From Pseudeuparius sepicola (taxonomy: Eukaryota > Arthropoda > Insecta > Coleoptera > Anthribidae), in assembly GCA_963920635.1 (NCBI GenBank), contig OY987302.1:44519500-44583499 (forward strand): a stretch of DNA of 64,000 nt, written 5' to 3'. Positions within the stretch are counted from its first letter, which is position 1. Every line of letters begins with the position of its first letter. Below the pieces are notes generated by a model. It made no database searches. It was given only the letters and a program-made list of their open reading frames with translations, and was not told where the DNA came from. Position numbers and translations under genes: made by a program. Positions 521 through 55,113 of this stretch are shown here, piece after piece.

Positions 521-1160
521 ACCTTCCCCTACCCTGAATGTACCGGGTGCATTGCTTTCTTGCAGTTTTGAATTTGTCATGAAAAGTCCTTTTTGGCAAT
601 ACCAAATAAGTGATATTTGAATGGAATTAACTGGAAAATTAGAATGAAAATACAGTTTTAAGCATTTTTGGTCTTTTATTCATAAAAATAAATATGTTGA
701 TTGTTGCTCTTTGCTTTGCTACATAACACGTAATAAAATATTTAAAAATAAAAAAAAATACATTCTAGGTACCTACATCATGAAGCAGAAAACAGTCTTC
801 TTACAAAGCAAGTTCTTTGTGTTGCTGTTGCTTAACTTTAAGACTTAAAGACTCAAATCAAATGTATTAAATATTAATTGTTATTGTTGTGAAGTAGAAA
901 TGAAATAATAATGAAATCTATTGTTGTTTTGTTGTTTTTAACAAGTTCTATAAACCCGGCTTTACACATTTATTTCGAAGTAAAAGAAGTCGTTGATACA
1001 AATAATTACACTTATTGTACCAAGGAATCAGATCAGAACAGATATAAAATAAACTCAGCAGATACTAAATAGTAAATAAATAGTTTTTGGCACCTCAGAC
1101 TAATGAATACCGAGTTTGGCACAGACAAGCAATAATAAACAAGTGGTTGTGGTTACATGT
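521..1160. other. AT-rich sequence without recognised features
   Basis: Read on both strands. There are many homopolymer A and T runs, no long reading frame and no conserved protein segment. It is presumed intronic or intergenic. Confidence 0.4.
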
Positions 1161-2160: not shown

Positions 2161-2348
2161 GGCGAATCGACCCTACTTAAGTACTAAGATTAAAATTTGT
2201 ATTGACCAAAAGTTTAAAATTATGCGTGTTGCCCACTACAGATCCAAAAAAGCCATTTTATGGGTCAAAATGTTGAATCGCCACACACGTGCTGTACATT
2301 TAGCCTTAATGACTAATTATTAATTTAATCGCTGGTGCAATTTCTTAC

Positions 2349-2984
2349 CGAGTCCTTGCATAATCCAAAGGATAGACGAAACACAAAGACGATGCTCCGG
2401 CAGCTCCGCCTGACGCCAAATTTCCCGCAAAGTATCTCCAGAACTGTGTTTTCTTATCTACGCCTCCCATAAAAATTTGCTTATAAACATCTTTAAATGC
2501 AAAATTTAGAGCTTGTGTTGGAAAGTACCTTATCACATTTGCTAAATTGCCACGCCAGTAACTTAGGAAGCCTTGTTCTTTTGGAATGCGTACAAAGCAG
2601 TCGAGCATTCCTAAAACAAAGAAAAAAAATTCATAATTTAATGAAATTATAAGTTTGAAATGTTACTTAAGTGGATTTTTTTCGGGTTATGGTATTTTAT
2701 TCCTTATTTAACCATGTGGTTCAAAAATAAGTGCACCAGGGCCCTGGTTTAGGTTTATAGATATTATATGCCTTTAAGTATTTATAATAAGGCCAAGGGG
2801 CCCAAGGGATTATACTTTTATTACCTTTGTACCTTTGCTCTGCAGGAATCTGTTTACTAGCCGCTTGCACTTGTAAAAGCAATTTAACTCTTTCTATGGG
2901 TGCAACAGCAGTTTTTGCAACTGCTGCCGAAATTCCACCCGCCAAAAAATCTTTTATAAAACCCACTGTAGCTTCGGATGGCAT
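2349..2984 (-). CDS. ANT: Mitochondrial ADP/ATP carrier (adenine nucleotide translocase), 5' exons
   Basis: The product exchanges matrix ATP for cytosolic ADP across the inner mitochondrial membrane (SLC25 family). Exon 1 runs 2984-2825 and opens [17 protein letters not shown]. It holds the first carrier signature as [10 protein letters not shown] (P-x-D/E-x-x-K/R). Exon 2 runs 2610-2349 and reads through [11 protein letters not shown], the conserved [13 protein letters not shown] stretch and the second signature PLDYARTR. Donors are GTAATA after 2825 and GTAAGA after 2349; the acceptor is TTTTAG before 2610. A glycine codon is split across intron 1. Together the exons encode about 140 residues of a protein usually near 300, covering repeat 1 and the start of repeat 2. 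The remainder must lie left of the window, or past a long intron. The start is the only ATG giving the family's N-terminus. A second in-frame continuation past 2825 is intronic. No disabling change is visible. Confidence 0.95.
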
Positions 2985-3430
2985 TTTTTTTTTATTTTGA
3001 TCGCGGTCGGTAGTCGATGTTATAGCCCAGAGTTGTGGTTCTTTTTATGCACACGGACGTTTTGATTGAAATGAGCGAGCCCCAGAGTTGTTAATCCCAC
3101 GATGGTTGGAACAGAAAAGAATTTGAACAAAAACGATAAAAGGATTATTGTGCAAGCTCAAGAATTTTGACAGAAATTCAAATTTACTGACAACTGACAA
3201 AAGACAACCATAGATCATAAAATAAACCAGGAAAAAATCTAAACAAAAGTCATAAATTCTATCTTGATTGAAAGTATTAGTGATTAGTAAGAAAGTTGTT
3301 GCAGTGGCGCCAGTGGCGTGGGGAAGCGATGGCGATTTCCTTTTTTTTGGGGATCCTGGAAAAGCAGTTACTTGATCCTAGTTGTGAAAATTAGCTAAGC
3401 AAGTATGTACCTACACCTACCCAAATATAA
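2985..3430. promoter_or_regulatory. Presumed upstream/5' UTR region of the carrier gene
   Basis: This is the segment immediately 5' of the carrier start codon on the minus strand. It has no convincing TATA box. It is less AT-rich than its surroundings near 3000-3110. The assignment as promoter rests only on position; a non-coding first exon further upstream is possible. Confidence 0.3.
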
Positions 3431-3510: not shown

Positions 3511-5481
3511 CCAGAGCATATAAAACAACCAGCGGTATAACTTACTCTTGAGAAATCATCCGCAAATTCAATCACCTTGAGCCATATTGGGGGAATAGAA
3601 GTCAGAGGTGTAGTCGGGAAAATCAATTCAGAAATATAGAGTAGTATTATTAGTAGTTTATAGTGTGTGGTAAGCACGAGCAGCTTTGACTCGTTCCTGG
3701 GATTCTTTATTTAAAGATACTAGCACAAAGCACAATTTACAAGAAAAGCACACTCCACGACACTGTAATATCTCTCATATAGCCAAAAAAGAACTGCCCA
3801 ATCGCCCCGACACTGTATCCATATGACAGAATCTATTCCCAAATGGCGGCTGCGCGAACAGGTGCGCAGAATTTTCCCGGCAAGGGGAAATTATATACAC
3901 TGTGTCCGGATAAGAATGAACAGCATGGACATATTGCAAACGGTGAGAGATACGGCAACGGTTAAATGGGGAAAAAGTCGCGCATTTTTGAGGTCAATAA
4001 AATTGAATAAACAGATTTCTAATATATTTTTTCGTTTCTGAGTTATTTTGAGAAAAGTAAAATTTTGCGTTTTCGATTTTATTTTTTCTGGAGTTGTTAT
4101 CACGGATAGAAAAAAAATAAAAACACTTTCTTATGGCACTTTTTAACGGGCTTTAAGATAGCGTTTTTAGATTTCTTCTACAACGTTTCGTATTTGCGAA
4201 ACCATCTTCAACTTTATTTTTTTAAATTCGGACCTGGATTTTTTTTGCAGATTTTGAAAGCACTTTTCATTGCAAATACCATGATGTATAACACGAAATA
4301 TTTTTAAAATGTTTTGAGTCAATTATACTGAAAATTCCTTTTTTTCCATTCATTTTTTTCTATTGCGGCCCTGTATTTAATAATAAGAAGTCTAAATATT
4401 AATCAGTATTGACAGTTTATTTTGACTTCGAAAACTTAATTTTTTTAAATACGGCCCTGTCTGGTGTTTTCCTCTGTTGTTGTACAGCAAACAGTGTCGC
4501 ATTGTGTTTCGGAGTAAATTCTGCACTTTTTCTAATTGTGAGAAGAAAGCTTTAAGCCAACAAAACCAATAACTTTTGCCATTTATTAATTGCAACAATA
4601 CATACGTTCGGCCTCTACACTATTTCTGTGACACAAGATATAACATGCTGACATGTTAAATTTGCGGTCATTTGAAATAGCACCCTCCATTTATAATGAT
4701 ACAAATTGTTAACTAAATGATACAGTGGGAGTTATGACAAATGACACAGTGTATACTGCTAGTTGTTTTATATGCTCAGAAATCACCCGCAAATTCAATG
4801 ACTTTGAGCCATATTGGGGGAATAGAATGCAGAGGTGCAGTCGGGAAAATCAATTCAGAAATACCTACAGAGTAGTATTATTAGTAAAGTAGATAGTGTG
4901 TGATAAGCACAAGCAGCTTTGACTCTTTCCTGGGATTCTTTATTTAAAGATACAAGCACAAAGCATAATTTATAAAAAAAACACACAATTTTCCCGCCAA
5001 GGGGAGATATACTGCTGGTTGTTTTATAAGCTCTGGTTACCAGAACATATAAAACAACCAGCAGTATATCTGCCCATGGCGGGAAAATTCTGCGCACCTG
5101 TTCGCGCAGTCGCCATGTGGGCATAGATTCTGTCAAATTGATGCAGTGTCGGGGCGATTGGGCAGTTCTTTTTTGGCTGTATGTGAGATATTACAGTGCC
5201 GTGGAGTGTGCTTTTTTGTAAATTGTGCTTTTTGCTAGTATCTTTAAATAAAGAATCCCAGGAAGGAATAAAAGCTGCTTGTGCTTACCACACACTCTAT
5301 ACTTTACTAATACTACCTCAGACTAAAGATAATCTTTAGTCTGAGAATAGTACTCTGTATTTCTGAATTGATTTTCCCGACTACACCTCTGACTTCTATT
5401 TCTCCAATATGGGTCATTGAATTTGCGGATAATTTCTCAAGAGTAAGTTAATCTGCAGGTTGTTTTATATGCTCTGGTTGC
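3511..5481. mobile_element. Inverted-repeat element with GCATATAAAACAACC ends
   Basis: Arms of about 400 bp lie at 3511-3905 and, inverted, at 5060-5481. Both begin at an ACCAGAGCATATAAAACAACC-like end. A third partial copy in plus orientation lies at 4765-5000, and 4986-5090 is itself a palindrome centred near 5038. Each arm contains an AATAAA on the outward-reading strand. The middle (3906-4760) is AT-rich with no gene. The repeated arms share an open stretch MTES-P-WRLREQVRRIFP (at 3823 plus and 5136 minus), which may be coding or chance. The element is inserted in the right terminal repeat of DIRS-B. LTR ancestry of the arms is possible and unproven. Confidence 0.55.
5309..5353. mobile_element. 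Micro-hairpin insertion (29 bp) with 8-bp duplication
   Basis: A 29-bp hairpin at 5317-5345 has 13-bp arms CTCAGACTAAAGA and TCTTTAGTCTGAG around TAA. It is flanked by AATACTAC (5309-5316) and AATAGTAC (5346-5353). The homologous arm copies at about 3640 and 4865 lack the hairpin and have a single AATACTAC-type site, so the inserted state is visible within this window. Confidence 0.75.
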
Positions 5482-5641
5482 ACCCTGGGGACGCATTTGA
5501 CCACAAAGTAAAAAGAAGAATATTTTACTCTTTTGAGGACTTCTCCTTGTTATTCTAGGGACGGCCGTAGGTGTCGCCCATGGTCATCGAGTTCAAATTA
5601 TCCAGATTTTTCAAAATTGGCGCCGAGGGGGGGGAGCGGCG
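5482..5641. other. Short spacer between nested elements
   Basis: GC-richer than its surroundings, with a G run near 5620. No gene is recognisable. It may be leftover DIRS-B sequence or the flank of an older insertion. Confidence 0.25.
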
Positions 5642-6749: not shown

Positions 6750-7505
6750 TGCAGTATATGTCCACGGATTGCTCGACGGATTGAGTTTATGTAAGGTGTA
6801 AATGACAAAATATTTTTGAGTTGAAATTTGAGCTTCTGGGTATCAGTCTTGCTTGGTATATAAAACTAAGATGTAGAAAAAATTAGGGCGATTAATTAAT
6901 ATACAGGGTATTTTTTGAGCGAATTTTCAAAAATTGTCAAGAGTAAACTACCTTTATTTTTAAAAATATCAAAAAGTTTTACTTAGAAAAGTTGCTTACA
7001 TTTAAAAGATATATTTCATCGTCGATTTTCAAACATCTCAGCCGACTTTGATTTTTTATTGTGAAATGAAACTACCTTTTTGTTTTTAAAAATATCAAAA
7101 ACATTTATTTAGAAAGTTGTATAGTTAACAGTTACTTTTAGTCACTTTTCAAGCAAATCTGCCGACTTTGGTTTTTACCTCAGAGAAATAACCAAGGATA
7201 TTTCTCTGAGGTTTTTACCTATTTAAATCAAAACCCACCGATTTGCCCGAAAAGCGACAATCGGACACATATTTTAAATCTAAGCGACTTTTCTAAGTAA
7301 TTTTTTTGATATTTTCTAAAAATAAAGGTAGTTTACTCCTGGCGATTTTTGAAAATTGGCTCTAAAAACACCCTCTATATTAATTAATTGTCCTAATTGT
7401 TTCTATATCTTAGTTTACGACCCAGAAACTCAAATTTCAACTCTAATTGTTTTTGTCATTTACACCCTTTAGGTACCTATCCATCCGTGGACATACTGTA
7501 TATTG
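6750..7505. repeat. Foldback (long inverted repeat) element
   Basis: Arms of roughly 300 bp pair 6750-7060 with 7200-7505. They meet in shared blocks such as TATGTCCACGGAT, GTGTAAATGACAAAA and CTACCTTTATTTTTA. A partial third repeat of the inner arm lies at 7070-7165. No coding capacity. The micro-hairpin at 7179-7210 sits near the centre. Confidence 0.65.
7171..7218. mobile_element. Micro-hairpin insertion (32 bp) with 8-bp duplication
   Basis: The hairpin at 7179-7210 has perfect 12-bp arms CTCAGAGAAATA / TATTTCTCTGAG and an 8-nt loop. It is flanked on both sides by GTTTTTAC (7171-7178 and 7211-7218). The ends CTCAGA/TCTGAG are those of the hairpin at 5317 and of the MITE at 25564. Confidence 0.7.
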
Positions 7506-11054: not shown

Positions 11055-11090
11055 TCCCTAATAGGGTTCCTTAGGAACCCTAGTCCCTAA
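11055..11090. mobile_element. Micro-hairpin insertion (22 bp) with 7-bp duplication
   Basis: The insert at 11062-11083 has arms AGGGTTCC and GGAACCCT around TTA. It is flanked by TCCCTAA at 11055-11061 and at 11084-11090. It has the same layout as the other micro-hairpins but different ends. Confidence 0.55.
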
Positions 11091-15625: not shown

Positions 15626-17325
15626 TACCAATATAATGGGGGAAATATTCGCGTATTTGGCAACGTTACCCGCCCACCTAGCCATCTAACCATATTCATA
15701 TATCCACGTCATCTAACACGTATGGTTTTCTGACCGTCAGATGACATCCCGTGATGCCAACTGTCATTCCGTATCTCGCTAAATCAAAATATTAGTAGAT
15801 AATATCTGTGCCATTTATTATAGTTTGTTATTGATATTTACTATTATATATTGTTTGCGGACCTAGTTATCATGTTGTTAGATGTGTAAGGTAAGGTATC
15901 ATGGACATGGACCCTGAAAGGACAATCCGTAATTTGCCGAAATTGGATGCTGTTAGCGTCTGCCGAAATCCATGGGATAAAACTGCAAAGGTTTGTACCT
16001 ACGTTGTAGTAAGAATACAGTAGGTAGTAGGTATTATGAGTTATTAATAAAGAGAGAACCTCGGCCTAGGGACCATCTTGAAGGCGTGTTTATGAAGATG
16101 CCATAGTGCTTAGAAGTACCTTCCGAGCCCGAATTCCAGACTTTAGGCCCAACCTAGCCAAGAAAATTTACAGAAAAACGATTGAATAAGTATTTACGAA
16201 AAAAAACCTTCTTGACTAAAATCGTCGATGGAGGAAGGAATCAATCAACGCTAAAAGTGGTTTCACGGGGCATCATAAGTCTGGGAGTTTGAGGTTAGAA
16301 TTTTGAAATTTCAACTTTCCTTGTAACTTTCACTGCCGAATAAGGTTATGTCTCAGAACACTTCAGTGGTATCGCTATGTTGCCAAATTGCCGTTATAAA
16401 ACACTTGTGACGTCATAAGTGCTTTTCCGCCAAATTTCAAAGAAAGTCTAATAAGTTCCTAATTACGTAAATATACATATTTTAAATAATCGTAGGGTCT
16501 TAGGCAAGTGTTCAGGAATTGTTTTATCAAGTTTGTAAAATTTCGTCAAGAACCCTAGTTGCAAATATCATAGTGCCGTATATTGTGCTGCTGGATCTAC
16601 GGATACTGCAATACTTCTAACAAGTACCATACGGCAAAACTTATTAGCTAGATCAAAAAATAGCCTATTTATACGGCAGACAAAAAATTGAAATCATTTC
16701 ACATGGTGCAGATATGGCTTTTGAAGCAAAATAAGTGGTTGCATAATCACCAGAATAGTCCAATTTTGCTCTAAACGAGAAATCATGAAAATGTTGGTTA
16801 GGGCGTTTTCATTTAACACGGCATAGTATATAATTAATGACAATTTCTTTACAACTTCTCAACTATATTTAATTTAGCATAGTATGCCTATCGTAAATGT
16901 TACGCCTTTGTTCCTTTACTTGTCTCTTCCATTTGTCCTGCTGGTGTCCAACTCTATTTAAAACATTTCCTCTTAAACTCATATTGTGTGACATTCCAGG
17001 TGTATTTGTTGAATCATCCTAGAATTTAAAAAAAAATTACAGATGTATCTAATGTATAGTTAAAGATAATCTATACACTAATAAGATGTGAATTATTTTT
17101 ATTAATCAAAACTACTTTCCGTTTTTCATGGAAAAATCCCTTTGTTATATTTTGTGACAGAAATTTCGTGGACAAAATACAGTCTGTTACTCAGTTAGAA
17201 TGGAAAAATTCGATACTCGTAGTTCCTCACGCTCGCTAACGCTCACGTTCGGAATCTTCCACTCGTATTGAATTTTTTCATTCTAACCTCATTACAGAAT
17301 CTACTATTCTTAACTCGCTTTTGGT
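15626..17325. other. Non-coding sequence with a hairpin motif at 16223
   Basis: No gene recognised. A copy of the CGTCGATGGAGGAAGGAATC motif at 16223-16250 ends AATCAACG and matches the iterons of the 26853-30908 element. GTTAGAATGGAAAAATTCGAT at about 17196 and its inverse at about 17265 form a pair just before the MITE at 17331. Confidence 0.4.
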
Positions 17326-21712: not shown

Positions 21713-22236
21713 TGAAGGAATAACAAGAGGCGAATCCAGGAAATAAGTGCACAGGAATAAAACGCACAGAAAAAAGCGCACAGTCACATCAGCGCACGGG
21801 AAATAACCGCACATGGAAAAAAGCGCACACGAAAAAAAGCGCACACTGCAAAAAGCGTACAAGGAAAAATGCGCACAAGGAAAAATGCGCACACATTAAG
21901 TGTGTGTTTCACATTTTGGGGTATAATTCTTTGAAATAGGCTTATTCCATGGCCCATTGTTATCAAAAGAATACCCCCAAAAATCACACACCGTATTGGG
22001 CATTTGCAAATAAACAGGCAAATATCAAAAACCATTTAGGTAAATAGTATTCGGATTATTACATTTACATTAATTTAATCCCTATTATTATCTTAATCTA
22101 CATAACGAGTATACCTGTCACCTAATTTGACATGGGAAGGGCCGGCTTATATATGTATAAGCCAGGCAGTTAGAGTTGTCTTTAATCTTCCAAAACTTTC
22201 GAACAAGGCAGTTTACATTTTCTTTGAATTAGCAAA

Positions 22237-23550
22237 ATGGAGTTTTCGACCAGTCAGAAAGGCAAACAAATTCTCGGGTACAAGGGATCTGAATATCGGC
22301 TCTTTCGCACAACAAACGAAATAGATACTTGGAGGTGTTGGGAGGATCGATCTACGAAGTGCCTTTCCTTGATGAAAACGAAGAACGGAAACATAGTGCA
22401 AGAGCCAACCAGTCATTGTCATGACTCCTGTCCTCAGAAAACAGAAGCAAACAAAGCCCGTAGCCTAATGCGTCAAGCCATGGCAGCTGTGAATGCTACT
22501 CCTCGCAATGTTATTGGAGACACCTTATTACAAGTGAGCAATGATCCACTGGCTTATATTCCGAAGCAATCGTCTGTTGCCAGAACTCTTCGAAACCACC
22601 GAGCAGAGAAGCATTTGTCGAATCCATCGACGATCTACTTCGCGATTCCTGAGAAATACTCGGACTTAGTGTTGCAAGACATCGGGATAGACAATACGAA
22701 CAGAATTTTAATTTTGGGAGATAGTTATTGAACACATTGAAGCAAACCACTTTATTCGGTGACGGAACATTTGACAAGGCCCCCTAATGTTTTATCAACT
22801 TTATACTTTACATGCCAAAGTGGGAAATTCGTATCCACCATGTGTGTACATATTGCTACAAAAGAAGAATGAAGCCACTTACATGGAGATGTTTAGAATT
22901 TTGAAAGAGTTAGTTCCAAACATGGCGTCCCAGAAAATGCTTTTAGATTTCGAAAAAGCCTGCATGAATGCTGCCAGAAAATCTTTTCCAGAAGCCGAAA
23001 TAAAGGGTATTGTTATTTCCATTTGTGCCAAAACCTTATAAGGAAAATCCATGCAGTTGGATTAAAATCGGAATTCGAATCCGATGTCAACACAAAATTA
23101 TTGCTGAAATCCCTTGCTGCATTAAGTTTCGTTCCGGAAGAAGATGTAAGAAATATATTTACAAGACTAGCAGAAAGTTTTCCCGATGACGACAAGTTTA
23201 ACATAGAAGGAGCCGCAGGGAGAAGTGCTCAGTTTCCTCCCAGAACATGGAACCACTACGATGCCGCCCTTGACGAATCACCAAGAACTACAAATTGTTG
23301 CGAAGGCTTCCACAATGCCTTAAATTCACTATTTCATTGTAGCCATCCTAGCATATGGATGCTGTTCGACGGATTGCGAAGGGATTTAGCGTGTCATAAG
23401 CTGACTTTAGCGAACGCCGAAGCCAACAGATTGGACCCTACAAAAAGGAAGTACAAACAACTTTACTCGCTTGTTGCCAGCTCGGTAGAAAAATACAGCG
23501 AAACTGAAGATAAATTAGCTTACTTAAGGAGATTAGCTAATTTTCAGTAA
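22237..23550 (+). pseudogene. FLYWCH-domain MULE transposase, frameshifted
   Basis: The first frame (22237-22731) begins MEFSTSQKGKQILGYKG and carries a FLYWCH zinc finger: Phe start, W-x-C at TWRCW, a later Cys, then HCHD near residue 61. The catalytic region then appears in other frames: GDGTFDKAP (first Asp of the DDE triad), FYQLYTLHAK, KMLLDFEKA (second Asp) and YCYFHLCQNL. A last frame to 23550 includes TNCCEGFHNALN. Frameshifts near 22725, 22783 and 23010 break the gene. Taken together it spans about 435 codons, shorter than typical, so the N-terminus or tail may also be reduced. FLYWCH fingers fused to MULE transposases are known in animals. Position between inverted iteron arrays supports transposase identity. 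Confidence 0.8.
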
Positions 23551-24869: not shown

Positions 24870-24964
24870 TTAAGTTCGTTCAACACATTAGAATCGTTCC
24901 ATTACCACTACTTATAATATGCTATATGTGTATATCCAAGGAGACGCAGTGTACAAATACTTAC

Positions 24965-25381
24965 ATCTTCATTTGTGTGTTCTTGATAATTGCCTTTCAT
25001 TCTCTTGTTTAAGAGTGGGTCCAATATGATCAAAAATGCCATATAGATAACGAGTATTGAAATGACCCAAATAACTATTATAACCACAACTTTAATAACT
25101 CCAGTTTTTCTGTTTTCATACTTGCACTTGCAGCGGGGGCAAAATTCTTGTTCCTTTCCAATGATCTGAGCTTGTATCCGTGGCAGAATCACTCCGTCAC
25201 AGTTACTAAAGTTTTCTCGTCAAAAATATTTCAGGTCTCGGGTAAAGGCTGCTTACCATTTACTTGGAGGGACATTCGTTATATACATTATTCTACTTGT
25301 ATGTGAGATTTCTGTACTGTTTGTGACTGTAGATATGCCTGGGCAAATGCATTTGCATCTTTTGTCTTCATAAGATTGTGC
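24965..25381 (-). CDS. TMEM9: TMEM9-family transmembrane protein, two internal exons
   Basis: TMEM9 proteins are single-pass type I membrane proteins of late endosomes and lysosomes, linked to vacuolar ATPase assembly and signalling. Exon at 25381-25257 opens AQSYEDKRCKCICP and ends ITNVPPSK plus a split Cys codon. The next exon at 25205-24965 continues NCDGVILPR, then FCPRCKCKYENR. A membrane span (VVVIIVIWVISILVIYMAFL) and the cytosolic LDPLLNKR and QEHTNED motifs follow. The Cys-rich lumenal region and these tail motifs are diagnostic of the family. Splice sites: acceptor TTACAG before 25381, donor GTAAGC after 25257, acceptor CTTTAG before 25205, donor GTAAGT after 24965. The frame is preserved across the 51-bp intron. 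The first exon (signal peptide) and last exon(s) were not found; the last would lie leftwards beyond the MITE and MULE cluster. No disabling mutations. Confidence 0.9.
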
Positions 25382-26144: not shown

Positions 26145-26844
26145 AATAAATTCTATTGTGGATATTTTATTCTACATTTTGTATTTTGTGATAGGATCAC
26201 AAGAATAAAAATAAATATAGATATTTTTCTATTTTCTTCTTCTTCGTATCTTAGCCACAGATTACACAGAGATATAGAGGGGGGAGAATCATTGTCAACG
26301 TGGGCAAGACTGCTAATTTTTCTACCGCCATTTTAACCCACGAAAGTGCGACAAATTCAAAATATTTGATTTTTCAAATTTTTGTTGCATTTATTTACGT
26401 TTAGGTATAATTTTATATTGATGTGGTAGCAACTTTAGTAAAAAAAGTTTGTTTTTACCTGGACCGTTTTTGGCGAATCTGCCTTGGTGCCTCATTAGGA
26501 GAAATCATTGAATCTGTTGAAGTTGCAGCTTGTGGTAGGCTAGGACCACTTTGTTGTTGGTCAGATTCATTTTCCGACGGTATAGAAGTTGATTGGAGGC
26601 ATTTCTTATTGCCCACCAATTTGTGCATGTTCTTACAGAGCAAGACATGTTAATGAACACAACACGATTACAAAAACAAGCCAGAAAAAACACCAAACAC
26701 ACGAAAAAGTAAACAAATTTCTAGACAAGACTGGCTTAAAATGGCGGCGATCTAAACGCCCTCTGTGTAGCCGAAAAATCGGATGCGCAGTAGCTCAAAG
26801 AGCATTCTCTTCCTCCATATCTCTGAGATTACATCATATCTGTG
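26145..26844. other. Non-coding sequence with a possible exon
   Basis: Mostly AT-rich DNA, then a GC-richer segment at 26480-26820. See the candidate exon at 26457-26643. Nothing else was found. Confidence 0.3.
26457..26643 (-). CDS. Candidate exon, Ser/Gln-rich, unknown protein
   Basis: The minus strand reads MLCKNMHKLVGNKKCLQS, then a Ser/Gln/Pro-rich acidic stretch ending APRQIRQKRS. It is followed directly by a good donor (CCAG/GTAAAAAC) at 26457. Composition resembles disordered regulatory or transposase linkers. I do not recognise the family. The other frame opens MSCSVRTCTN, faintly like a THAP N-terminus. It lies between TMEM9 exons and the THAP element, so either could own it. Confidence 0.25.
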
Positions 26845-27033
26845 ATCTCGCCCCTTGTTTATGGAGGTTCTAGTTAGCTTTTGCTTATGGCGGAATTTCT
26901 ATAACCTTCAAATATGTCCTTATGGTCTGTCTGTCACATTCCCACTTTTTACTAAATATTTCTGTCTCGTTCCCTTACATTTCACCGAGACGCGTCCGTA
27001 CGGTGGCGCCAAATTCCGAACCACGGTCCGAGC

Positions 27034-27092
27034 CGTCGATGAAGGAAGGAATCCGCAATCGACGGTTAGAGAAAAGCGTCGATGGAAGAAGG
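27034..27092 (+). repeat. Left subterminal iterons of the THAP element
   Basis: One full copy at 27034-27064 runs CGTCGATGAAGGAAGGAATC and closes with AATCGACG. A second, half copy CGTCGATGGAAGAAGG is at 27077-27092. Further full copies are at 27511-27538 and, near the right end, 30532-30562. The motif forms an imperfect hairpin CGTCGAT/ATCGACG. Confidence 0.6.
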
Positions 27093-27383
27093 TTAAATTT
27101 TACAGGGCAGGAAACTGTTATTATGTACATACGTACGCGGGCCAGGTATCGATCGACCAAGCGCATCGTCACGTCCAAGGTCCAGCCAGCTGTTTTTGCT
27201 TTTTGCTTTGCTGTGATTCTCGTTCTCTTATTTCCACTTATATTGTTACCTGTATTTGGTGGATAGTGTGCGGTGGTGTTCTAGTCCGATAATTAGTGTG
27301 TGCATATAAAAAAACATTTCGTGTTTTGAGCCATCAGATAAACGATAAATAGGTACAGAGGTTGGGAAGTGAAAATGTGTTTT

Positions 27384-27434
27384 GTTGTATCATAGAAGAA
27401 TCTAGTCGTAGTAGATTCTTCTATGGTTGTATCA
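27384..27434. mobile_element. Micro-hairpin insertion with 7-9 bp duplication
   Basis: The hairpin at 27391-27425 has 14-bp arms CATAGAAGAATCTA / TAGATTCTTCTATG. It is flanked by GTTGTAT at 27384-27390 and 27426-27432; the direct repeat can be read as nine bases (GTTGTATCA). It sits within the THAP element. Confidence 0.6.
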
Positions 27435-27581
27435 AAATGAGTGTTTTCTTGTGGTTTTAGAATCGATGCAAATCAACGGTTCTAGCCTTGCAAGTGTTGT
27501 GTCCCAAATTCGTCGATGGAGGAAGGAATCAATCGACGCCTAAATTGGAATCGCAATTACCTAACCGGGCCAAAGCCAAAA

Positions 27582-28041
27582 GTGTCCGTTTTTGCCTTTC
27601 CTAAGGATCCAGTTTTGAGGGCAAAATGGGTGCAAGCCTTATTTATACAAACAAGGGTGCAAGCCATAAAAAGTGCTTATTTTGTAGTCAAGAAACATTC
27701 AAGGTATGTTATATGTTACATTTTTTATATATTTTTTATAAAGCTTCGGGTTATTGTAGGTCTATGAACAACACTTTTTAACACAAGACATTGAAAGGGA
27801 GACTACGTGTGTTCGTCGATGGTCCTCAATTAACGGTGTGTTTAGAATCGACTGGTGAAACTACGTGCACCTTTAAAAATTCCACGTTTAGCTAAAGGTT
27901 TTAAATTTTCATGGCAAGTTAATTTTATTATATTTTTACAAAATATACTTACTTTTTTTAGGTGCAATACCTTGTAAGTTAGCAGGTTGCCCAAGTTATT
28001 TGTCCAAATCGAGCACGAGTCGTAGGGAAGATCCCAAATAA
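27582..28041 (+). pseudogene. THAP-domain exons of the P-like element, decayed
   Basis: THAP domains are C2CH zinc fingers that bind DNA. The exon at 27582-27703 reads VSVFAFPKDPVLRAKWVQAL, the FxFPKD and W core. It ends with a donor at 27703. The next exon (27760-27897) starts VYEQHF, where the family has V-C-x-x-H-F, so a zinc-binding Cys is replaced by Tyr. The third (27962 on) gives GAIPC, the A-V/I-P box, then CPSYLS and RREDPK, the usual tail, and reaches a stop at 28039-28041. The first two exons do not join in frame, off by one base. Exon 2 also holds a 47-bp insertion. The N-terminal C-x-x-C exon was not identified. The gene is inactive here. A truncated THAP-only product, as in P repressors, is conceivable only for an undamaged relative. 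Confidence 0.65.
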
Positions 28042-28540
28042 AAAAACGACAAACTTTGCAGAAGTTTCAGTTATTAAGTTTTTTTAAGATGCTAGAGTTG
28101 AACGTAAATAAAAATCGTTGGTATCGTACTGTCATCCTCGAAGATGTGCCTCAAAATAGGTACATAGCTAATATTAATATTATCTATTATACAGCGTGGT
28201 CACAGATTTTAGTTATTCTGTGGCGTGGTGAATAAAAAATGCGAAAGTGTGATTTTTCTTTCTTTTGAGTAGGTGCCTGTGAATTCATATTTGACATTGT
28301 CTTGGGATTCCAAACAACTCTTCATAGTGCTGTAGTTCTAAAAATAAGGTTACTTTACTCTTGAGGAATTTTCATAAGTATTTTTCAACCTTCCCTGTAT
28401 ACGAATAGAAATTTTAAAATTTTTCGGGTATATTTTGAGTTTAAGCACAAGTACCAACTTTTATCAAGAATACTTTTTTTTCTGAGAAACTTCAAATATA
28501 GAAAATTCCCATTTGTGTCCAACTTTCTGGCAGACGCTGT

Positions 28541-30037
28541 ATATACAGGGTGAGTTTTTTCGATGCCCACTATAGGGATCTTGGAAACTAGCAGAACTAC
28601 AACAAAGAATTGCGGGGAAGAATTGCAGTTTTGAATGCTCAATCTAATGCCCCTTTTGGATTTTTAAAAAAGTTCATGGCTCACTAGATATTTTGAAAAT
28701 AGTGATTTTTTGCTATCAGATCTCTGTAGCTCCTTTATTTCTGATTATACAGAAAAACTGTAGAGACAAAAATTGTAGATATGTAATCCAATTTTTTATG
28801 TTGTTTGTGATTTTTGAGATATGACATAGACTTGTGTTTTTTTAAATGTAAATCGTAGTTGGCTGCGGCCTTATCAAATCGGCCATTTTTTGAGCTTTTC
28901 AAAAATATAATACTCTGCATAGTTAACAAATAAAATAGCTATGGCTAATTTTCTGATTTTTTTCTTAATTTTCACATAGTCAGCCATGGAATATTTTCAT
29001 AATTACGTTCTATTTTATAATAAGACATACTTCAAACTTTCAAATATTTTATTTTTAGCTGGTAACAAAATGTAACAAAATAAAACAAAAATTATCATGA
29101 TGGAGCTCCATCACATAATAATTATCTGCCCGTAAGAAATTACCTAGATCAGCTATATCAAAATAGTTTGATAGGGAGAAATATACCTATTTCCTGGCAG
29201 CCCAGATCCCCCAATTTGTCTGTTTTGGATAGTACAAAATAAAGTACGAGACAATTGTTGAATTAAGAGCAGCTGTTTTAGAAGCAATTGCCAGTATTGA
29301 CAGGCGCTCTCTAAGAAAGGCGACAAATTCAGTTTTAAAAAGATGCAATATTTGCGTAAATAATAATGATAGATTGTTTGAACACCTTTTTTTATTTTAA
29401 AAGGTGACCTTTTAAAATAATAATAATTTGAATTTGAGTTTTTTAATTTTTGTTTTATTTTGTTACATTTTGCTATCAGCTAAAAACAAAATATTAGGAA
29501 GTTTGAAGAATGTCTAATTATAAAATAGAATGTAATTATGAAAATATTCCATGGCTGACTATGTGAAAATTTTGAAAAAAATCAGAAAATTAGCCATAGC
29601 TCTTTCATTTTTTATAATAACTATGTCGAGTATTATATCTTTGGAAAGCTCAAAAAATGGCCGATTTTATAAGGCTTTAGCCAACTATGATTTACATTTA
29701 AAAAAAAGCACAAGTTTATGTCATATCTCAAAAATCAGAAACAACATAAAAAAGTGGATAAGATTATCTTATTAAGCCCAAAATTATCTACAATTTTTGT
29801 CTCTAGAGTTTTTCTGTATAATCAGAAATAACGGAGCTACAGAGATCTTATGAAAAATAGCAAAAAAACACTCTTTTCAAAATATCTAGTGAGCCATGAA
29901 CTTTTTTAAAAATCCACAAGGGGCATTAGATTGAGCATTCAGAACCGCAATTCTTTCCCCATTTAACCTTTGTTCTAGCTCTGCTAGTTTCCGAGATCCC
30001 CATAGTGGGCATCGAAAAAAAAACTCACCCTGTATAC
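28541..30037. repeat. Foldback element, ACAGGGTGAG ends
   Basis: Arms of about 550-590 bp, 28541-29095 and 29445-30037, are near-complete inverses. Ends are TATACAGGGTGAG and CTCACCCTGTATA, so target TA or TATA is likely. The arms contain CATGGCTCACTAGATATTTTG and ATGACATA-GACTTGTG blocks. A related but rearranged copy lies at 55914-56912. No transposase. Confidence 0.8.
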
Positions 30038-30044
30038 CTACATT

Positions 30045-30062
30045 CGTCGATGGAAATCAACG
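30045..30062 (+). repeat. Short iteron copy
   Basis: CGTCGATGGAAATCAACG, the iteron without its GAAGGAATC centre. It lies eight bases past the nested foldback. Confidence 0.45.
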
Positions 30063-30531
30063 CTATATTTCACAACATAACTACTATTTTGCAAATCTTG
30101 GAAATTTCTCAGGAGGTATTGGTAAAGGTATTGTTTATCCTGTGGTAAAGGTAAAACTATCTCGGACAGTTTTAAAATTTTCTAGCATGCCAGCTGAGTT
30201 TTTTTTAGTGCTATAAACGGTGGCCTTTTTCCAAATTCTAATAAAGTAAACTGAAAACAGTCAGTTTTGCCCACAAACGTCATTAAGAATTTTTTCGGTA
30301 ACTCTTAAAACAAGGCGGTTTTTACAAAGGTTTTTCGAAATTATCTCTGAAAGTATAGGCCGTAATTCTCGAATATGCTTTTGCATAAAGTTAGACCATC
30401 AAAAAAGCAATCTTTTCTTTCAAAGAAAGTTGTCCGAAACCGAAAAATGCATATTTATCAAGATATTCACTGGCTCCCCTTTAATATAGACATCCTGTAT
30501 AGGTCTGTGATCTTATCCTCGTTAAAAGCCT

Positions 30532-30562
30532 CGTCGATGGAGGAAGGAATCCTCAATCAACG
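30532..30562 (+). repeat. Right subterminal iteron of the THAP element
   Basis: A full copy opening CGTCGATGGAGGAAGGAATC and closing CAATCAACG. It is the right-hand partner of the copies at 27034 and 27511. Confidence 0.6.
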
Positions 30563-30916
30563 AAAGCATGCACAAGCAAATTTTTCTTGAGGATTATGTA
30601 TTTCAGTTAAAATGTTTTCAATACCAAGGTATAGCTAGGTATATAATTGTAAATATCTGAATAAACTTTATTATAATTATTGTTTCATTGCGATCGATCG
30701 ATACAAAAACTATGGAAAAAATCGTTTTCAACCGTTTTTATTTCTCTCCGTTAGTTTTAGATTTTGATAATAGGTGGCGCCCTGTGAATCCGATCATAGA
30801 TCTCTGTTAGTTTTAGATTTGGTCCTTAGAGGCCGACACAAGCAACTAAATCTATTAATATATAGAAATTCCGCCATAAGCAAAAGCTAACTAGTCTCAT
30901 AAACAAGGATCTCGCC

Positions 30917-34854: not shown

Positions 34855-35972
34855 AGTGTTTGTAAATACATTTATCTCTTTCATAAAGTGAGAGGGTTCA
34901 GCTTACTGTTTACATCTGTATGTCTGAGGGAACGCCAATCATTTCATCTGACAAACATTCCTGTGACTTTGGCATTCGCTCTCTCTCTACGTTAGTGGGC
35001 AACCTTACTTTAAGGGTGTTGCAAGTGTCGAGTGTAATACCCGGAGCTGTCAAATGCTGCTGAGGACGCCCGCTCCATGCAAGGACTCTAGAACTCAATA
35101 GTCCTTGCCCTTGCGCTGTTGCGCTCCATGGCTTGTGGCATTCACCCCCCTCTAATTCTGTGAGCAAGACCCCCTTCCTCAATCAACGACAAAACACAAT
35201 AACCAGACCTTGGAAAAAAAAGACACGGGCAGAATTTAATTGAGAGGTGCAGAGCTAGCCCGCGCATCTTTATGGCGCAGCCTTCTTTGCCATCTTTTCA
35301 GTTTAAGTATAGGCGTCCTCAATGAATAAAGATTGGGCGTCCTCTTCAGTTTAGCATTTCAGTGGCGCCAGTTTTTTGCGAGTGTCTGTTATTGTGTTTC
35401 CGTGCTTGCTTTATGACGAATAAGTTCTGTGCTAAAAGCAAGCTTTGTTTGTGCAGCGAAAGCGTGCATGGCGTTTGATCTTAAAGCTGCTTTAAATTCT
35501 TTTGCTTGTGGAGTTCTAGAATTTATAATATGTCGAACAGAGGCGATCTATTTTTCTATTGAAATCTGTAGTTGCATCACTCCCTTAGAATTCTTGCAAA
35601 TGCATTTTTTGATTTAGAAAATCTATAGCATCGGCAACACTGTTATTTAATGTTTGGGCTGCCAGATGAACCTATTTATAAATTACTTTCAATTGTTCCT
35701 AATTTAAATTATAAGTTCCGAGGTAAGTACTTACTTTCATTTTTTGTCTGCTCCACTACATATGGGCCTTTTTTAATTTGTATCGAACGTGGAGACCTTC
35801 CTTTTCTTGCAACTCATCCAGTTAACAATATTGCCACTACTATCATCCCTGAATTGCTGTAGGTTAGCAAAGTTGTTTCTCATAAGTTAATCAACACTTT
35901 GCGGGGTTAAACTATAAACAAATTTGATGTGAACGGGTAGGTACGTAGATTTTGCAGATTACCTACCTATCG
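34855..35972. other. Non-coding sequence, GC-richer in the first part
   Basis: The segment 34980-35340 is GC-richer with a 90-codon minus-strand frame lacking any known domain. The rest is AT-rich. An LTR is conceivable but not supported. Confidence 0.25.
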
Positions 35973-36059: not shown

Positions 36060-36231
36060 TAATTATATGTCGGCGCCTCGTCCTCTAGATCACTTGGATT
36101 ACTTTATGTAGTGTCGCCTTTTGCGCACTCTTGCCACAGTATTTGAAGAAGAAGAGACAATTTTGATCCCTTTGTGGGACCCCGTGCCTCACTCCTGTTG
36201 CTAACCCGCATCCAACTTCATTCTCATTCTT
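36060..36231 (+). repeat. Left inverted terminal repeat of DIRS-A
   Basis: Begins TAATTATATGTCGGCGCCTCG. From ATCACTTGGATTACTTTATG onwards it is the inverse of the right repeat, through CATTCTCATTCTT. The outermost 25 bases differ from the right end, as is usual in DIRS. Confidence 0.9.
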
Positions 36232-36292
36232 GTTTTTTGTGCGCTCGAAGCCACACGTGCTACTTTTTCGCGACCTTTTTTCCAACGAAAAT

Positions 36293-40365: not shown

Positions 40366-40414
40366 ATGACAAAAACAGCTTTGATTTTTCATTTTCTAAT
40401 GTATCTCTAAATAG

Positions 40415-40536
40415 CTACATAAAGTAATCCAAGTGATCTAGAGGACGAGGCGCCGACATATAATTAAACGATCAAACGAACTTACCTGTGATGTTCGATC
40501 GTAATTATATGAGGCGCCTCGTCCGAATAGATCACT
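40415..40536 (+). repeat. DIRS-A internal complementary region
   Basis: The first half is the exact inverse of the left end, down to GGCGCCGACATATAATTA. The second half is the inverse of the right end, from TTAAACGATCAAACG to GTCCGAATAGATCACT. The two meet at TTA. It therefore records the circle junction GATCGTT-TAA-TTATATG and predicts a TAA crossover, which the flanks show. Confidence 0.92.
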
Positions 40537-40631
40537 CCCTCCCTTAGTCCCAACCCGGGCAACCAAATCGAAATGAAAAATAAAATCCTTCCAAGGTTGA
40601 CCAAGGTCAACTTTACTAACCCCACTCTAAA

Positions 40632-40841
40632 AAGAATGAGAATGAAGTTGGATGCGGGTTAGCAACAGGAGTGAGGCACGGGGTCCCACAAAGGGATCAA
40701 AATTGTCTCTTCTTCTTCAAATACTGTGGCAAGAGTGCGCAAAAGGCGACACTACATAAAGTAATCCAAGTGATCTATTCGGACGAGGCGCCTCATATAA
40801 TTACGATCGAACATCACAGGTAAGTTCGTTTGATCGTTTAA
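40632..40841 (-). repeat. Right inverted terminal repeat of DIRS-A
   Basis: The inverse of the left repeat from AAGAATGAGAATGAAGTTGG to GATC. It then carries its own terminus with GAGGCGCCTCATATAATTAC and ends GATCGTTTAA at 40841. Confidence 0.9.
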
Positions 40842-41122: not shown

Positions 41123-41811
41123 TTTAGGAGATCTTTAACAGAAAACCAAAATAATAATTAATACCAAATATCTCATTATTTTATTTTGATATTGACTTAC
41201 AGGCGAAAACTAAGGGACTTTCCTTGAGGTGGAAATTTTCTATTATTTTTGCAGTTCTTCACGGCACAACTAACATGCCATAAGTAATGAAACTAAACTA
41301 TCACTTAATATCACTAATCACTAATAAACAATACTATCGCATAACAAACAATAGGTACTCAAATCTATAAAATATTACCTACATAAAAATGTCGTAACCA
41401 ACCACTCCAACCATCAGTCGTAAATACTTGTAAATCACCTTTTTGTTTAATGTTTAAGGATAACGACGGGAATCTTTTGGCGTTAGTACTTGAAAATGGC
41501 GGACCCATAGAATCGGGCAAAATTAGGCTGCTAGTCGTCTAAGAACCATCTCCTCACCATCATATTATTATGTGCTGAACAGTGTTTTTTATGAATAGGG
41601 TGCGTGGAAAATAATGACCAAAATTGAATATATATTTTGGGGCCCATTGCACATGCCCATTTAATATCTAGTTGACTTATGGCCCAGAGTGCATGCGCGT
41701 TTTCTAGATCAAGGGAGAGACCAGAGAAATTTTCTCTGGGAGAGACGCACAATAATTTCTGGATTGCTTCGACCACAAAATTTACGTTACCTTCCACGAT
41801 AGAATTACCCA
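41123..41811. other. Non-coding sequence
   Basis: No gene recognised. A 97-codon minus-strand frame (41824-41531) has no domain I know. Confidence 0.3.
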
Positions 41812-41856
41812 GTTTATCCGGCACCGTCGCTGTTATTGCGACGGTGCCGGTTTATC
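41812..41856. mobile_element. Micro-hairpin insertion (31 bp) with 7-bp duplication
   Basis: The hairpin at 41819-41849 has perfect 12-bp arms CGGCACCGTCGC / GCGACGGTGCCG around TGTTATT. It is flanked by GTTTATC at 41812-41818 and 41850-41856. It is strongly GC-rich in AT-rich surroundings. Confidence 0.7.
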
Positions 41857-42686
41857 GTGGTTACCTTAGACCTTATCTGACCTAATCTTGATGTTCGGTG
41901 GTTGTCATGTCATGCTTTGCTTTAGGCTTTAGGTTAGGTCCTTGTTTGTTTGATGAAAATAAAAATTTTGCCGACCAGGGAGGAATTTGCCATAAATAAT
42001 AATAATAGATTCGTGTACGTGTACAGTAATGAGTAAACATTCTATCACAAAAGTTTAGTTTTATCTGCATTGTTTCATATCTATTTTTTAGAGATATAGG
42101 TAAACCTGTACATTAGTGTACATATTTTTTTCGGAAGTGTATCCTGGGCTTACCGCTAGGAACATATTTCATCGATTTTTTTTAAAGTAGTTGAAGATTT
42201 TTTCGCGACAAAATCACCTACCATTTCTAATAAGATAATTATCAGCCAGAGTCCCATTAGTGAATAGAAAGACATTCAGTAAGTGCCTTATTTATATACC
42301 AACAGAAGGGGGGTGTTTCGAAGGTATCCACATAACCTCAGGGATTATATTTAAGAATATAGCTGGCTTACCATGTAGCCAGGCTATTATTTTTTTAAAC
42401 TGACAACTGGTAGGCATTTTAACCTGTTGGTTCAGTGTGCCAACCAATTGGTCGGCAAAATATCCTACTATTTACCTACTAAAATTAATTGTCGCCACAA
42501 TGCGTATCTTGTCAGGAAAATTTGGAAAACGTGAAATGACGATTTGGTGGAACGTATGACTCCTGGGATTTATTATTCTTTATGTTGCTTATTACATTAT
42601 TATTGTTCTCTTTTAATATATAATTTTATTAACATCTAAATGGAAAATATATTTTTTAAGAAATGAAAACCGGAAATATATTAGGA
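41857..42686. other. Non-coding sequence
   Basis: AT-rich. No gene, RNA or repeat identified with confidence. Confidence 0.3.
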
Positions 42687-44815: not shown

Positions 44816-45932
44816 CCAAAATACAGGGTATTAAAGTTTTTCTTCAAAAAGTCGTCTTTTAGTCCCAATTTCTACACCACTTGCAAAAAGTGAATAGATA
44901 TGAAATCAAGATGAAATAGTGAAATTTTAAGCTATACTTTACTCTATAAAGTTGTACTTGTTAAATGTTGCTATGTCCAAAGGTCTTCGAGAAATTTGCA
45001 ATAGAACGGTCAGCGTTTTGCCATGACCATTTAAATATTACTCATATTAATGCCAAAAATTATCTTTATTTATTTATTTATTTACTTATTTATTGTTCAA
45101 AATTTCACTTCTTATTTTACATATTATAGGTATCATACCATACATATTGCACCATCCATCATGGTTAATCGATTCAGAAAGATAATTTCTAATACTAAAA
45201 TCGGGACTAAAATAGTAAATAAAATGTATACGAGAAGATAATGCCACTATTATTACCACTAAAAAAATATATTTTTAGTGGTAATAATTAGGGTTCCTTT
45301 AGTAATAATTATATATTTCTGTTAATTAGTTCACCTTAAGTTTCAATAAATATATTGGCTTGTATATTGGTTTTTGTTCCTGTCCTGAATCAATTTAATA
45401 TGATGGATGGAGTGGGATAGTCTAATAATGGATGTGGACATTTTTTCATTTTATGTAAGGTCTGGTAGGCATAATTAAAAAAAATAAGAATTTAAATAAT
45501 TGTTAACCATAAATAAATAAATAAATAGTTTAAATATTACAATTAACTTTCAGCAATAACACGAACGAGTAATATATAAACAGTCGCTGGGAAACACCAA
45601 CCGTTTTAGCACACCATGTTCGTATGACTTTTTTGCCATAAAATAATCCAACCTGTAGTAAGCAGAATATGCGGATACCTCGCGAAACACTCTGTAGGTA
45701 TATAAATAGTTACATACCATTTAATGTGGTATGTAACCGTGCGAAAATATCAATGATGGGTCAGCCTATGTGTAGCTTTGTCTATGATAAAACTATATAA
45801 AAAAGGGCATATTAAAGAAAGGTACCTTCTTGTTAGTACTTATGTATTTTGAAGAATTTTTTTTCTATTCCTACCGGAAGGCGCAGGATACACTCCTATT
45901 TTTTAACTAGGTATTATTAAGTACTCTCAGAA
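44816..45932. other. Upstream region of the Gmd gene
   Basis: AT-rich. It includes a hairpin ATTACCACTAAAAA/TTTTTAGTGGTAAT at about 45252-45286 and another, GTTACATACCA/TGGTATGTAAC, at about 45710. Neither has flanking direct repeats. The promoter is expected in the last few hundred bases but no element is certain. Confidence 0.3.
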
Positions 45933-53415: not shown

Positions 53416-53455
53416 GTTAAATCGTTGACTGAAATATTTCAGTCAACGGTTAAAT
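53416..53455. mobile_element. Micro-hairpin insertion (26 bp) with 7-bp duplication
   Basis: The segment 53423-53448 is a perfect 26-bp palindrome with half-site CGTTGACTGAAAT. It is flanked by GTTAAAT at 53416-53422 and 53449-53455. Confidence 0.65.
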
Positions 53456-55113
53456 ATAATACTATATTATTATTCCACTTTATTCTCCTTGCCTTTGCCC
53501 TACTTTATTATTACCATGAATGATAATTTATTTATATTTTGTTTATTTGTTTATTAAGTACATTATTATAATTTTGCCCTGAATGTTGAATTTTAATAAA
53601 AGCTTGAAATATTCAGAAAATTATTTAGGTAAAGTAGAATCAGTGTCAAAACCTAAGAATTCTTTGCCGGCAGCTCATTCGAGTGCTGTTGCCAGCAGTT
53701 CATTCAGGTGCCGTTGTCGGCAGTGGAGGCACATTCAAGTGAAACATTGTACAAGTGAAAGAGTTAAGGGCTACAATTATTACAAAACTATACTAGTCCC
53801 CTAAAAATGTATTTATATTAGTACCTACCATAAAAATTGCTGTGTTCATTTCTGGCTTCCATTTTTCATTTTTCCCAGAAGTACCTATTGAATTCTCCCT
53901 GGCCGTCTCAATCCAAATTTGTAGTTTTGTCCCTCAACTTTTACCATTTTTTTAAAATATTTTTTCTGATCCCCGTATAAAAATCATATTCGGATCCCAT
54001 CGGATTTAATTTAACTTTTAGCTCAAAAATAATAATTCAGTCAACGAATGCTCAAAAATGGGTTGTAGCACAGAATAAATAGCTTCACAGTAGAATAAGG
54101 GCAAATGTCAAAAATAAGCGAGTCTCCATTTCAATTTATGGAAAAACAGCCAGTATTTTAAGAATACATAATTTGGTCCTAATACAATCTCTTGGCTGTG
54201 TAGGTTAACGTAAAATGAAATTAATGTACAATAATATATTTATCTTAAGATATTTCGCCCAAAAGCGAGTCTCCTTTTGACACATGTGGCTAAGGATTTG
54301 TCTATATTATTCATTAGTCTGTGGTTGTAGAGCGACTTTTGTGTGCACTTTTTTTTACCGAACAAAAGTGCTGAGAAACAGAGCTGCAGAAGATAAAATT
54401 GTCTTCAAAATGGAGTATGAAAAGTAAAGTTAAATCCACCTATTACTTTAAAAGTTATACCTGTTTGCAAAATCCATAACAATATTATCTGATTTTCAGA
54501 TTGATTTGAGTGTCTAGAGAACGTAGGTATCCTTTTCCTAAGAGAAACCGGCAAGGGACCACCTTGCAATTGACACTGGTCGACACAGTTGACAATTGAC
54601 ACTGGTCGACTGTCTTATTTAGTGACTTTGAGCACTCTCACAACATCCGTTGGTGAAGTAGTTTTCAGATTGTTTTGTTGGCCTACAATTCCTTAAAGTT
54701 CATACGTTGTGTAGAAAAAACATCACAACATACAGAAGGCGACGATACTAAACTGTAAGTATGAGAACTTCACATACTTTTGGTTTCAAGACAAAGTGCT
54801 TTCTGGGTACAGTAATACCACAGGTTCAGTCATCTGTGGTAATACCCTTAAACAAGGGTAATACTAATCGATGATGACTTCAAAAGAAGAATATAGAGAA
54901 AAAGCCTTCAGTAAATGCAGAAAATGATGGTCAGTTCAAACTACTATTTAATATGTGAAATGTCAAACAGAATTATTGTCGGCTTTTGTAGGTTGTGAGA
55001 ATGGATATTCCCAGCTAACCACGAATGACCTATAACGTCAATTTTGCGTTATTTTAATAACGTAAAAAACAAGTAATAAAAGTAGCATTAATATTATTAC
55101 TACGATACCTATA
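53456..55113. other. Non-coding sequence with one direct repeat
   Basis: ACTGGTCGAC preceded by AATTGAC occurs at about 54568 and again at about 54594, a 26-bp period in two copies. No gene. Confidence 0.35.

Follow-up and report, generated by a model that had tools for sequence, protein, structure and literature searches.

A 64-kb stretch of the genome of the beetle Pseudeuparius sepicola (contig OY987302.1, positions 44,519,500 to 44,583,499; referred to as the window) contains about 20 candidate scars, in which an insert of 12-35 bp lies between two copies of a 7- or 8-bp duplication. The hairpins among them are probably excision footprints of P-superfamily transposons (P, 1360 or Galileo type) or of their miniature relatives. 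P excision footprints are known from experiments, and this is a known kind of footprint at a surprising density. In a preliminary description of the window, such hairpins had been presented as a recurring class of cut-and-paste insertions that consist of two abutting transposon ends only. The recurring class, comprising seven loci under a strict test, the composition of two abutting ends and the origin by a transposase were supported, and the target duplications are true ones, but the insertion of ends-only units is probably wrong. Excision is favored over such an insertion because the inserts stop at about 2 x 17 bp, because one locus, at 1094, carries 16 nt of the end of a longer element, and because larger elements with like ends are present.

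The hairpin at 5317-5345, described before within 5309-5353, is real, but its arms are perfect and 14 bp long around a 1-nt centre (CTCAGACTAAAGAT-A-ATCTTTAGTCTGAG) instead of near-perfect and 13 bp. The octamers on its left (AATACTAC) and right (AATAGTAC) differ in one base, which confirms the claimed 8-bp duplicated flank. The copies of the host repeat near 3640 and 4865 (opposite strand) are, as described, uninterrupted and read ACTAATAATACTACTCT, with a single copy of the target. When the filled copy was aligned to the paralogue near 3640, it was longer by 34 and not by 37 bp, because it lacks one AAT of an AATAAT run. Nine of the first 10 bases of the hairpin, and 12 of 17 overall, are identical to the end of a 255-bp element at 54069-54323. 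We infer that an excision took place at 5317 and that the cutting enzyme was of the P type.

For the strict test, perfect outer arms of at least 8 bp, an insert of 16-36 bp and a duplication of exactly 7 bp, or of 8 bp with at most one mismatch, were demanded. Seven centres in the window passed: the six of the preliminary description and an additional one at 41722. The five companions of 5317 are real, at 7179-7210, 11062-11082, 27391-27425, 41819-41849 and 53423-53448. The comparison with shuffled sequence proposed earlier, run here on the window, gave a mean of 0.04-0.05 such loci: 0.038 in shuffles of the whole window (maximum 1, n = 500) and 0.047 in block shuffles (maximum 1, n = 300). 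When flanks displaced by 7-40 bp from the same palindromes were compared, seven matches were found across the 34 offsets. The single-copy target expected at empty sites was found where a paralogue exists: clearly for 5317 and 11062 (paralogue near 5560-5640) and weakly for 7179; for the other four strict loci no paralogue was found within the window. In a scan by duplication length (arms of 8 with at most one mismatch, 200 shuffles), six exact 7-bp duplications were observed against 0.065 in shuffles, two of the six being weak (27637 and 43384), and two exact 8-bp duplications against 0.03.

A second scan used the sequence of the ends. Both had to begin with C and one or both to have G at position 5; in addition, the ends had to be complementary at four of five bases and to be flanked by an exact duplication of 7 or 8 bp. 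It identified 10 loci at inserts of 12-36 bp, compared with a mean of 0.06 and a maximum of 1 in 200 shuffles; because the end motif came from the first loci, the result is in part circular where these are concerned. At 37-136 bp one locus was found against 0.37 (30 shuffles), and this sole locus, 41794, contains the scar at 41819. New flanked loci from the scan are 1094, 35320 and 54846, whereas 27637, 28201 and 54819 had already appeared in earlier, looser scans. End sequences among the families include CTCAGACTAAAGAT, CATAGAAGAATCTA, CGTTGACTGAAATA, CGGCACCGTCGC, TAGGGTTCCTT and CGTCGATGGAGGAAGGA.

The inserts show an upper limit of length. Strict inserts span 17-35 bp, with none at 37-60 bp. 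Palindromes with perfect arms of 8 are flanked by duplications in 8 of 149 cases at 16-36 bp (7 sites), compared with 0 of 130 at 37-60, 2 of 171 at 61-100 and 0 of 431 at 101-200 bp. A similar edge appeared when direct repeats of 7-9 bp were counted without regard to palindromes (numbers given below with slippage). Candidate scars appear nested at 41787-41867, where an older one (TTACCTT) is interrupted by a younger one (GTTTATC). The older one, 41794-41860, is among the two flanked palindromes of 61-100 bp; once the 31 bp of the inner scar and a 7-bp copy are taken out, 29 bp remain.

For two of the end families, F1 and F2, the remnants match the ends of elements that still exist in the window. 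The first scan for larger elements missed both of these (54069-54323 and 26853-30908), and a looser, wider scan recovered them. The 255-bp element at 54069-54323 is a parent-type element of family F2 (ends CWCAGA) of putative P origin. At 1094, 16 nt of its right end, CACAGACTAATGAATAA-TATAGAC, are found again with one mismatch, and beyond these 16 nt only 3 of 23 bases match. A second copy of the end, at 34297, could be either a scar or an element end that has diverged; its bases 18-60 match the element at 15 of 43 positions, with a gapped score within background. The break at 34297 is unclean, so that 1094 is the one locus that gives a clean breakpoint. At the F2 scar 28201-28222, the minus strand from 28222 matches the left end of the element in 12 of 13 bases. 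Adjoining the 255-bp element, the sequence CGTTGACTGAATTATTA at 54046 (minus) agrees at 15 of 17 positions with the beginning of the 53423 palindrome as judged by eye, and has an imperfect flanking repeat, TTTGAGC.

Ends of the CCTT and CCTTGTTT kind are found on 27637 and 54846; CCTTGTTT is also an end of the 4,056-bp element at 26853-30908 (family F1), whose inverted ends extend about 50 bp inward with one short gap, as judged by eye. This element is called only a probable member of the P superfamily, because no transposase was matched in the open reading frames (ORFs) tested and because it holds other repeats. In its THAP-like exon, residues 4-50 align to positions 1-35 of the profile, which leaves 12 extra residues. 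The scar at 27511 (28 bp) together with one 8-bp copy amounts to 36 bp or 12 codons, equal to this excess, which hints at a protein-level trace of the empty site at 27511. No THAP relative was found in PDB or in the protein collection.

These features can be arranged in a model of excision. A transposon, or a miniature element moved by a P-type transposase, would insert and duplicate a 7- or 8-bp target. The transposase would then cut the element out in a staggered manner, one strand at the tip and the other 17 nt inside, so that each flank would retain at most 17 nt of the inverted end. Non-homologous end joining would unite the flanks in the order target copy, left end, right end, target copy, and the product would be palindromic if both ends survive and one-sided if one is trimmed. 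P transposase is reported to make its 5' cut, on one strand, 17 bp inside the inverted repeat (PMC7776569), and 17-nt overhangs are also given in PMC5386867. With such a stagger, a scar would be expected to form a palindrome no longer than about 34 bp inside 7- or 8-bp duplications.

The targets agree in part with those of P-type elements. Targets are reported as 8 bp, GTCCGGAC, for P and as 7 bp, GTTNAAC, for 1360 (PMC3276498), and for Galileo as the 7-bp GTANTAC or GTATTAC, with three copies of 8 bp (PMC4168063); Galileo duplications are given as 7 and rarely 8 bp (PMC2775673). In the window, targets such as GTTAAAT, GTTGTAT, GTTTATC, GTAATAC (reverse, GTATTAC), GTTTTTAC and GTAGTATT were found, and that of 54819 is exactly GTATTAC. 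Eight of the first nine catalogued duplications start with GT in one orientation (binomial 2.5e-7, with the motif chosen post hoc), as do 13 of the 20 candidates, where about 10% is expected. At 54812-54864 three copies of GTAATAC surround two scars of two families: a single target used twice.

Table 1. Positions of scars, candidate scars and larger elements in the window
Feature	Position	Strand	Description
One-sided scar	1094..1114	+	16 nt of F2 end, short joint; 8-bp duplication TTTGGCAC at 1086-1093 and 1115-1122
Palindrome CTCAGACT...	5317..5345		29 bp; read as F2 scar (ends CWCAGA); duplications 5309-5316 and 5346-5353
Palindrome CTCAGAGAAATA...	7179..7210		32 bp; 8-bp duplication GTTTTTAC (7171-7178, 7211-7218)
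Palindrome TAGGGTTCC...	11062..11082		21 bp; 8-bp duplications TTCCCTAA / GTCCCTAA (1 mismatch); single-copy paralogue near 5560-5640
F3 hairpin CGTCGATGG...	16223..16250	+	28 bp; flanks CTAAAAT / CTAAAAG (6/7)
4,056-bp transposon, probably P superfamily	26853..30908	+	inverted ends CCTTGTTTATG...; 8-bp duplication ATCTCGCC (26845-26852, 30909-30916)
Palindrome CATAGAAGAATCTA...	27391..27425		35 bp; 7-bp duplication GTTGTAT (27384-27390, 27426-27432)
THAP-like exon	27486..27764	+	inside 26853-30908; PF05485 E 3e-4, 21.9 bits, cut-off 23.9
F3 hairpin in THAP-like exon	27511..27538	+	28 bp; duplications CCCAAATT / CCTAAATT (7/8)
Candidate scar CCTTATTTATA+CAAACAAGG	27637..27656		20 bp, F1-like ends; 7-bp duplication GTGCAAG within an 11-bp direct repeat, boundaries ambiguous
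F3 scar	27814..27835	+	22 bp; exact 7-bp duplication GTGTGTT
F2 scar	28201..28222		22 bp, both ends CACAGA; exact 7-bp duplication GCGTGGT
F3 candidate	30045..30062	+	18 bp; flanks CTACATT / CTATATT (6/7)
F3 hairpin	30532..30562	+	31 bp; flanks AAAGCCT / AAAGCAT (6/7)
CTCAGACTAATGAATAA	34297..34313	+	16/17 vs end of 54069-54323; no clean duplication
Candidate scar CAAT...ATTG	35320..35335		16 bp; exact 8-bp duplication GGCGTCCT
Palindrome CAGAGAAA...	41722..41738		17 bp; exact 8-bp duplication GGAGAGAC; purine-rich, weaker case
Candidate older scar CCACGATA...TATCGTGG	41794..41860		7-bp duplication TTACCTT; split by later 41819 event
Palindrome CGGCACCGTCGC...	41819..41849		31 bp; 7-bp duplication GTTTATC
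One-sided candidate scar TAGGGTTCCTTTA	45289..45301	+	first 11 bases as at 11062; exact 8-bp duplication GTAATAAT
Palindrome CGTTGACTGAAA...	53423..53448		26 bp, perfect; 7-bp duplication GTTAAAT; related end at 54046 minus
255-bp element	54069..54323		ends CACAGAATAAATAGC / CACAGACTAATGAATAA; 7-bp duplication GTTGTAG (54062-54068, 54324-54330)
F2 scar CACAG...CTGTG	54819..54838		20 bp between GTAATAC copies (54812-54818, 54839-54845)
F1 scar CCTT+AAACAAGG	54846..54857		12 bp, between second and third GTAATAC (54858-54864); second event there

The duplications and the empty sites also resemble insertions, and the hairpins of 17-35 bp could themselves have been inserted as ends-only mobile elements by a transposase acting in trans. 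For this, the third family, F3 (ends CGTCGATGG / CGTYGATTGAGGA; loci 16223, 27034, 27511, 27814, 30045 and 30532), is the relevant case: the 28-mers at 16223 and 27511 differ in 1 of 28 bases, the 31-mers at 27034 (27034-27064, where no clear duplication was seen) and 30532 have the same centre, and the flanks of 16223 are dissimilar to the element 26853-30908 that holds the other three loci sharing this centre. For the strict loci, however, the window yielded no further hairpin built from the same arms, the one-sided remnant at 1094 breaks off 16 nt into the end of a longer element, and the terminal stretches that P elements require are reported to span 138 bp and 216 bp (PMC1562414). Insertion of the hairpins as such is therefore considered unlikely. 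Internal deletion by interrupted gap repair, in which the middle of an element is lost during repair synthesis and both ends are kept, is a known route to short derivatives and would likewise yield palindromes with target duplications. It sets no limit of about 34 bp, whereas the observed sizes stop at 35 bp, and one-sided remnants of 16 nt would not be expected from it, which makes it improbable as the source of the hairpins.

Footprints of hAT transposons would agree with the part of the set that has 8-bp duplications and with the TAGGG and CAGAG ends, and a hAT-like element of 559 bp with the duplication AGATTACA is present at 26267. Excision of hAT elements is described as forming hairpins on the flanking DNA and leaving a random footprint (PMC3878927), so that no end sequence would be expected, and against the 8-bp duplications that hAT footprints would require stand exact 7-bp duplications at 27391, 41819, 53423, 28201, 54819 and 27814; a hAT origin is thus very improbable. 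Equally remote is an origin by chance palindromes, template switching or slippage. Palindromes as such exceed the shuffles (149 vs 43.8), flanking repeats of 4, 5 and 6 bp are also raised (16 vs 4.7, 8 vs 1.3 and 2 vs 0.36), and maximal direct repeats of 7-9 bp, counted without regard to palindromes, number 56, 52 and 51 at inserts of 5-14, 15-24 and 25-34 bp and 42 at 35-44 bp, compared with about 32-33 in 20 shuffles and with 24-45 per bin (mean 32) at 45-204 bp. Much of this bulk excess is probably slippage, because the short-spaced repeats show no clear GT enrichment (16 of 159 at 5-34 bp vs 42 of 560 at 35-204 bp). For the hairpins, the excess is concentrated at 7-8 bp, that at 4-6 bp being 3- to 6-fold and far smaller than that at 7 bp, the ends are common to larger elements and the empty sites are single-copy; for the strict loci chance was rejected by the shuffles and by the end-motif scan.

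Several observations weigh against the reading of the hairpins as P-type excision footprints, among them the raised 4- to 6-bp flanking repeats and the lack of a clear GT enrichment in the short-spaced repeats. Parents for most end families were not found in the window, nor was an element whose ends are exactly those of 5317. For the 255-bp element the superfamily is putative, and bases 18-40 at 34297 match this element in 11 of 23 positions (background 27%, P about 0.03). In the 4,056-bp element the PF05485 match lies below the Pfam cut-off, and no transposase or catalytic domain of Pfam was identified in the 10 tested of its 30 ORFs of at least 48 aa; the profile alignment of its THAP-like exon also crosses the scar at 27637 without a gap. 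The insert of 27391 is, at 35 bp, 1 bp above 17+17. The duplications at 16223, 27511, 28201, 30045, 30532, 35320 and 41794, as well as that of the element 26853-30908, do not start with GT; F3 sites are mostly without this motif. The TAGGG and CAGAG ends and the G at position 5 also resemble hAT ends. Finally, one hairpin centre is common to four F3 loci (16223, 27034, 27511 and 30532).

The shared centre of F3 is not predicted by independent end joining, and could reflect recurrent junctions or a mobile hairpin. It is doubtful, but conceivable, that some hairpins are mobile, and that F3 (28-31 bp) is a transposon reduced to a pair of abutting ends, once a scar but mobile again. If so, few known transposable elements would be as small as the F3 hairpin, which would spread alongside ordinary scars and make duplications of 7-8 bp. 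Hairpins without any duplication (24 of 31 in one listing) lie outside the excision account.

Compared with known systems, the scars share with Drosophila P footprints the order of duplication, at most 17 nt of each inverted end and duplication, as well as the length of 8 bp and a target starting with GT. They differ in that a fossil set with several end families and also 7-bp duplications is observed here, and that the enzyme is putative. The 7-bp targets GTTNAAC and GTANTAC of 1360 and Galileo resemble GTTAAAT, GTTGTAT, GTTTATC and GTAATAC, the comparison being one of the duplications. The P-derived miniature inverted-repeat elements (MITEs) reported from Anopheles (PMC1562414) are short elements with target duplications, like 54069-54323, but are described as mobile, multi-copy and with longer ends, whereas the scars have 12-35 bp. 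With hAT elements the set has in common 8-bp duplications, targets similar to GTNCGNAC (hobo) and ends of the form C/T...G5. It differs by its 7-bp duplications and by the inverted ends, which hAT excision, as described in PMC3878927, does not leave. Among the titles and abstract openings listed from open-licence PMC papers, no natural set of palindromic scars of several families was found described, which is weak evidence for novelty.

Most cut-and-paste elements leave little behind, whereas a P-type element would leave up to 34 bp. Such a scar would record the family in its end sequence, the target choice in its duplication and the repair route in its junction. If the rest of the genome has the density seen here, 20 candidates in 64 kb, there may be more scars than resident copies; scars by themselves could then reveal which families were lost, and the rate of departure could be measured besides that of insertion. 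Scars can also insert small pieces into coding sequence, as in the THAP-like exon.

A number of candidates were rejected or downgraded. Hairpins at 308, 12123, 29392, 45249 and 45709 lack a duplication, 59726/59711 is a tandem repeat, 43384 and 42710 belong to a repeat of a longer motif, and 8737/8738, 2479, 44429, 50075 and 54577 are without the end motif. A local template for the arms found no support: in the window, arms of at least 10 nt of the strict loci have no exact copy outside their own hairpin. Near matches were found for the arm of 5317 at 1094 and 34297 (2 mismatches each), for the 12-nt arm of 7179 at 13439 and 32762 (1 mismatch; many more at 2), for that of 41722 at 30339 (1 mismatch) and for that of 53423 at 54035 (1 mismatch), 8442 and 21706 (2 mismatches); the 9-nt arm TAGGGTTCC recurs exactly once, one-sided, at 45289. 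Some of the near matches turned out to be family ends. One repeat probe in genome_contigs, and one repeat probe and one hairpin in viral_contigs, gave no exact match, which says little because these collections hold microbes and viruses.

Other elements were identified in the window. A DIRS retroelement at 36060-40841 contains a reverse transcriptase ORF (37357-38394) and a tyrosine recombinase ORF (39271-40365); among the best 120 of 486 matches, the named relatives of the recombinase were insects and one endosymbiont record. The proteins of this element, like the GDP-mannose 4,6-dehydratase exon named below, indicate animal DNA. The second half of a THAP domain lies at 40755-41123 on the minus strand (PF05485, E 1.2e-5, above the cut-off), apparently cut by the DIRS element; it could belong to another P-type transposase or to a host THAP gene. 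The hAT-like element spans 26267-26825, with ends CAGAGATAT and an exact 8-bp duplication. Three elements, at 17437, 24322 and 62245, have inverted ends (TTTATAAACT...) that all start beside TTTATAAA, which is a fixed target or else belongs to the ends themselves. A FLYWCH zinc-finger ORF followed by a 217-aa ORF with no Pfam match occupies 22228-23550, perhaps a MULE-type transposase. Exons were recognized of a mitochondrial carrier (2348-3044, minus), TMEM9 (24911-25219, minus) and GDP-mannose 4,6-dehydratase (GMDS; 46028-46797, plus).

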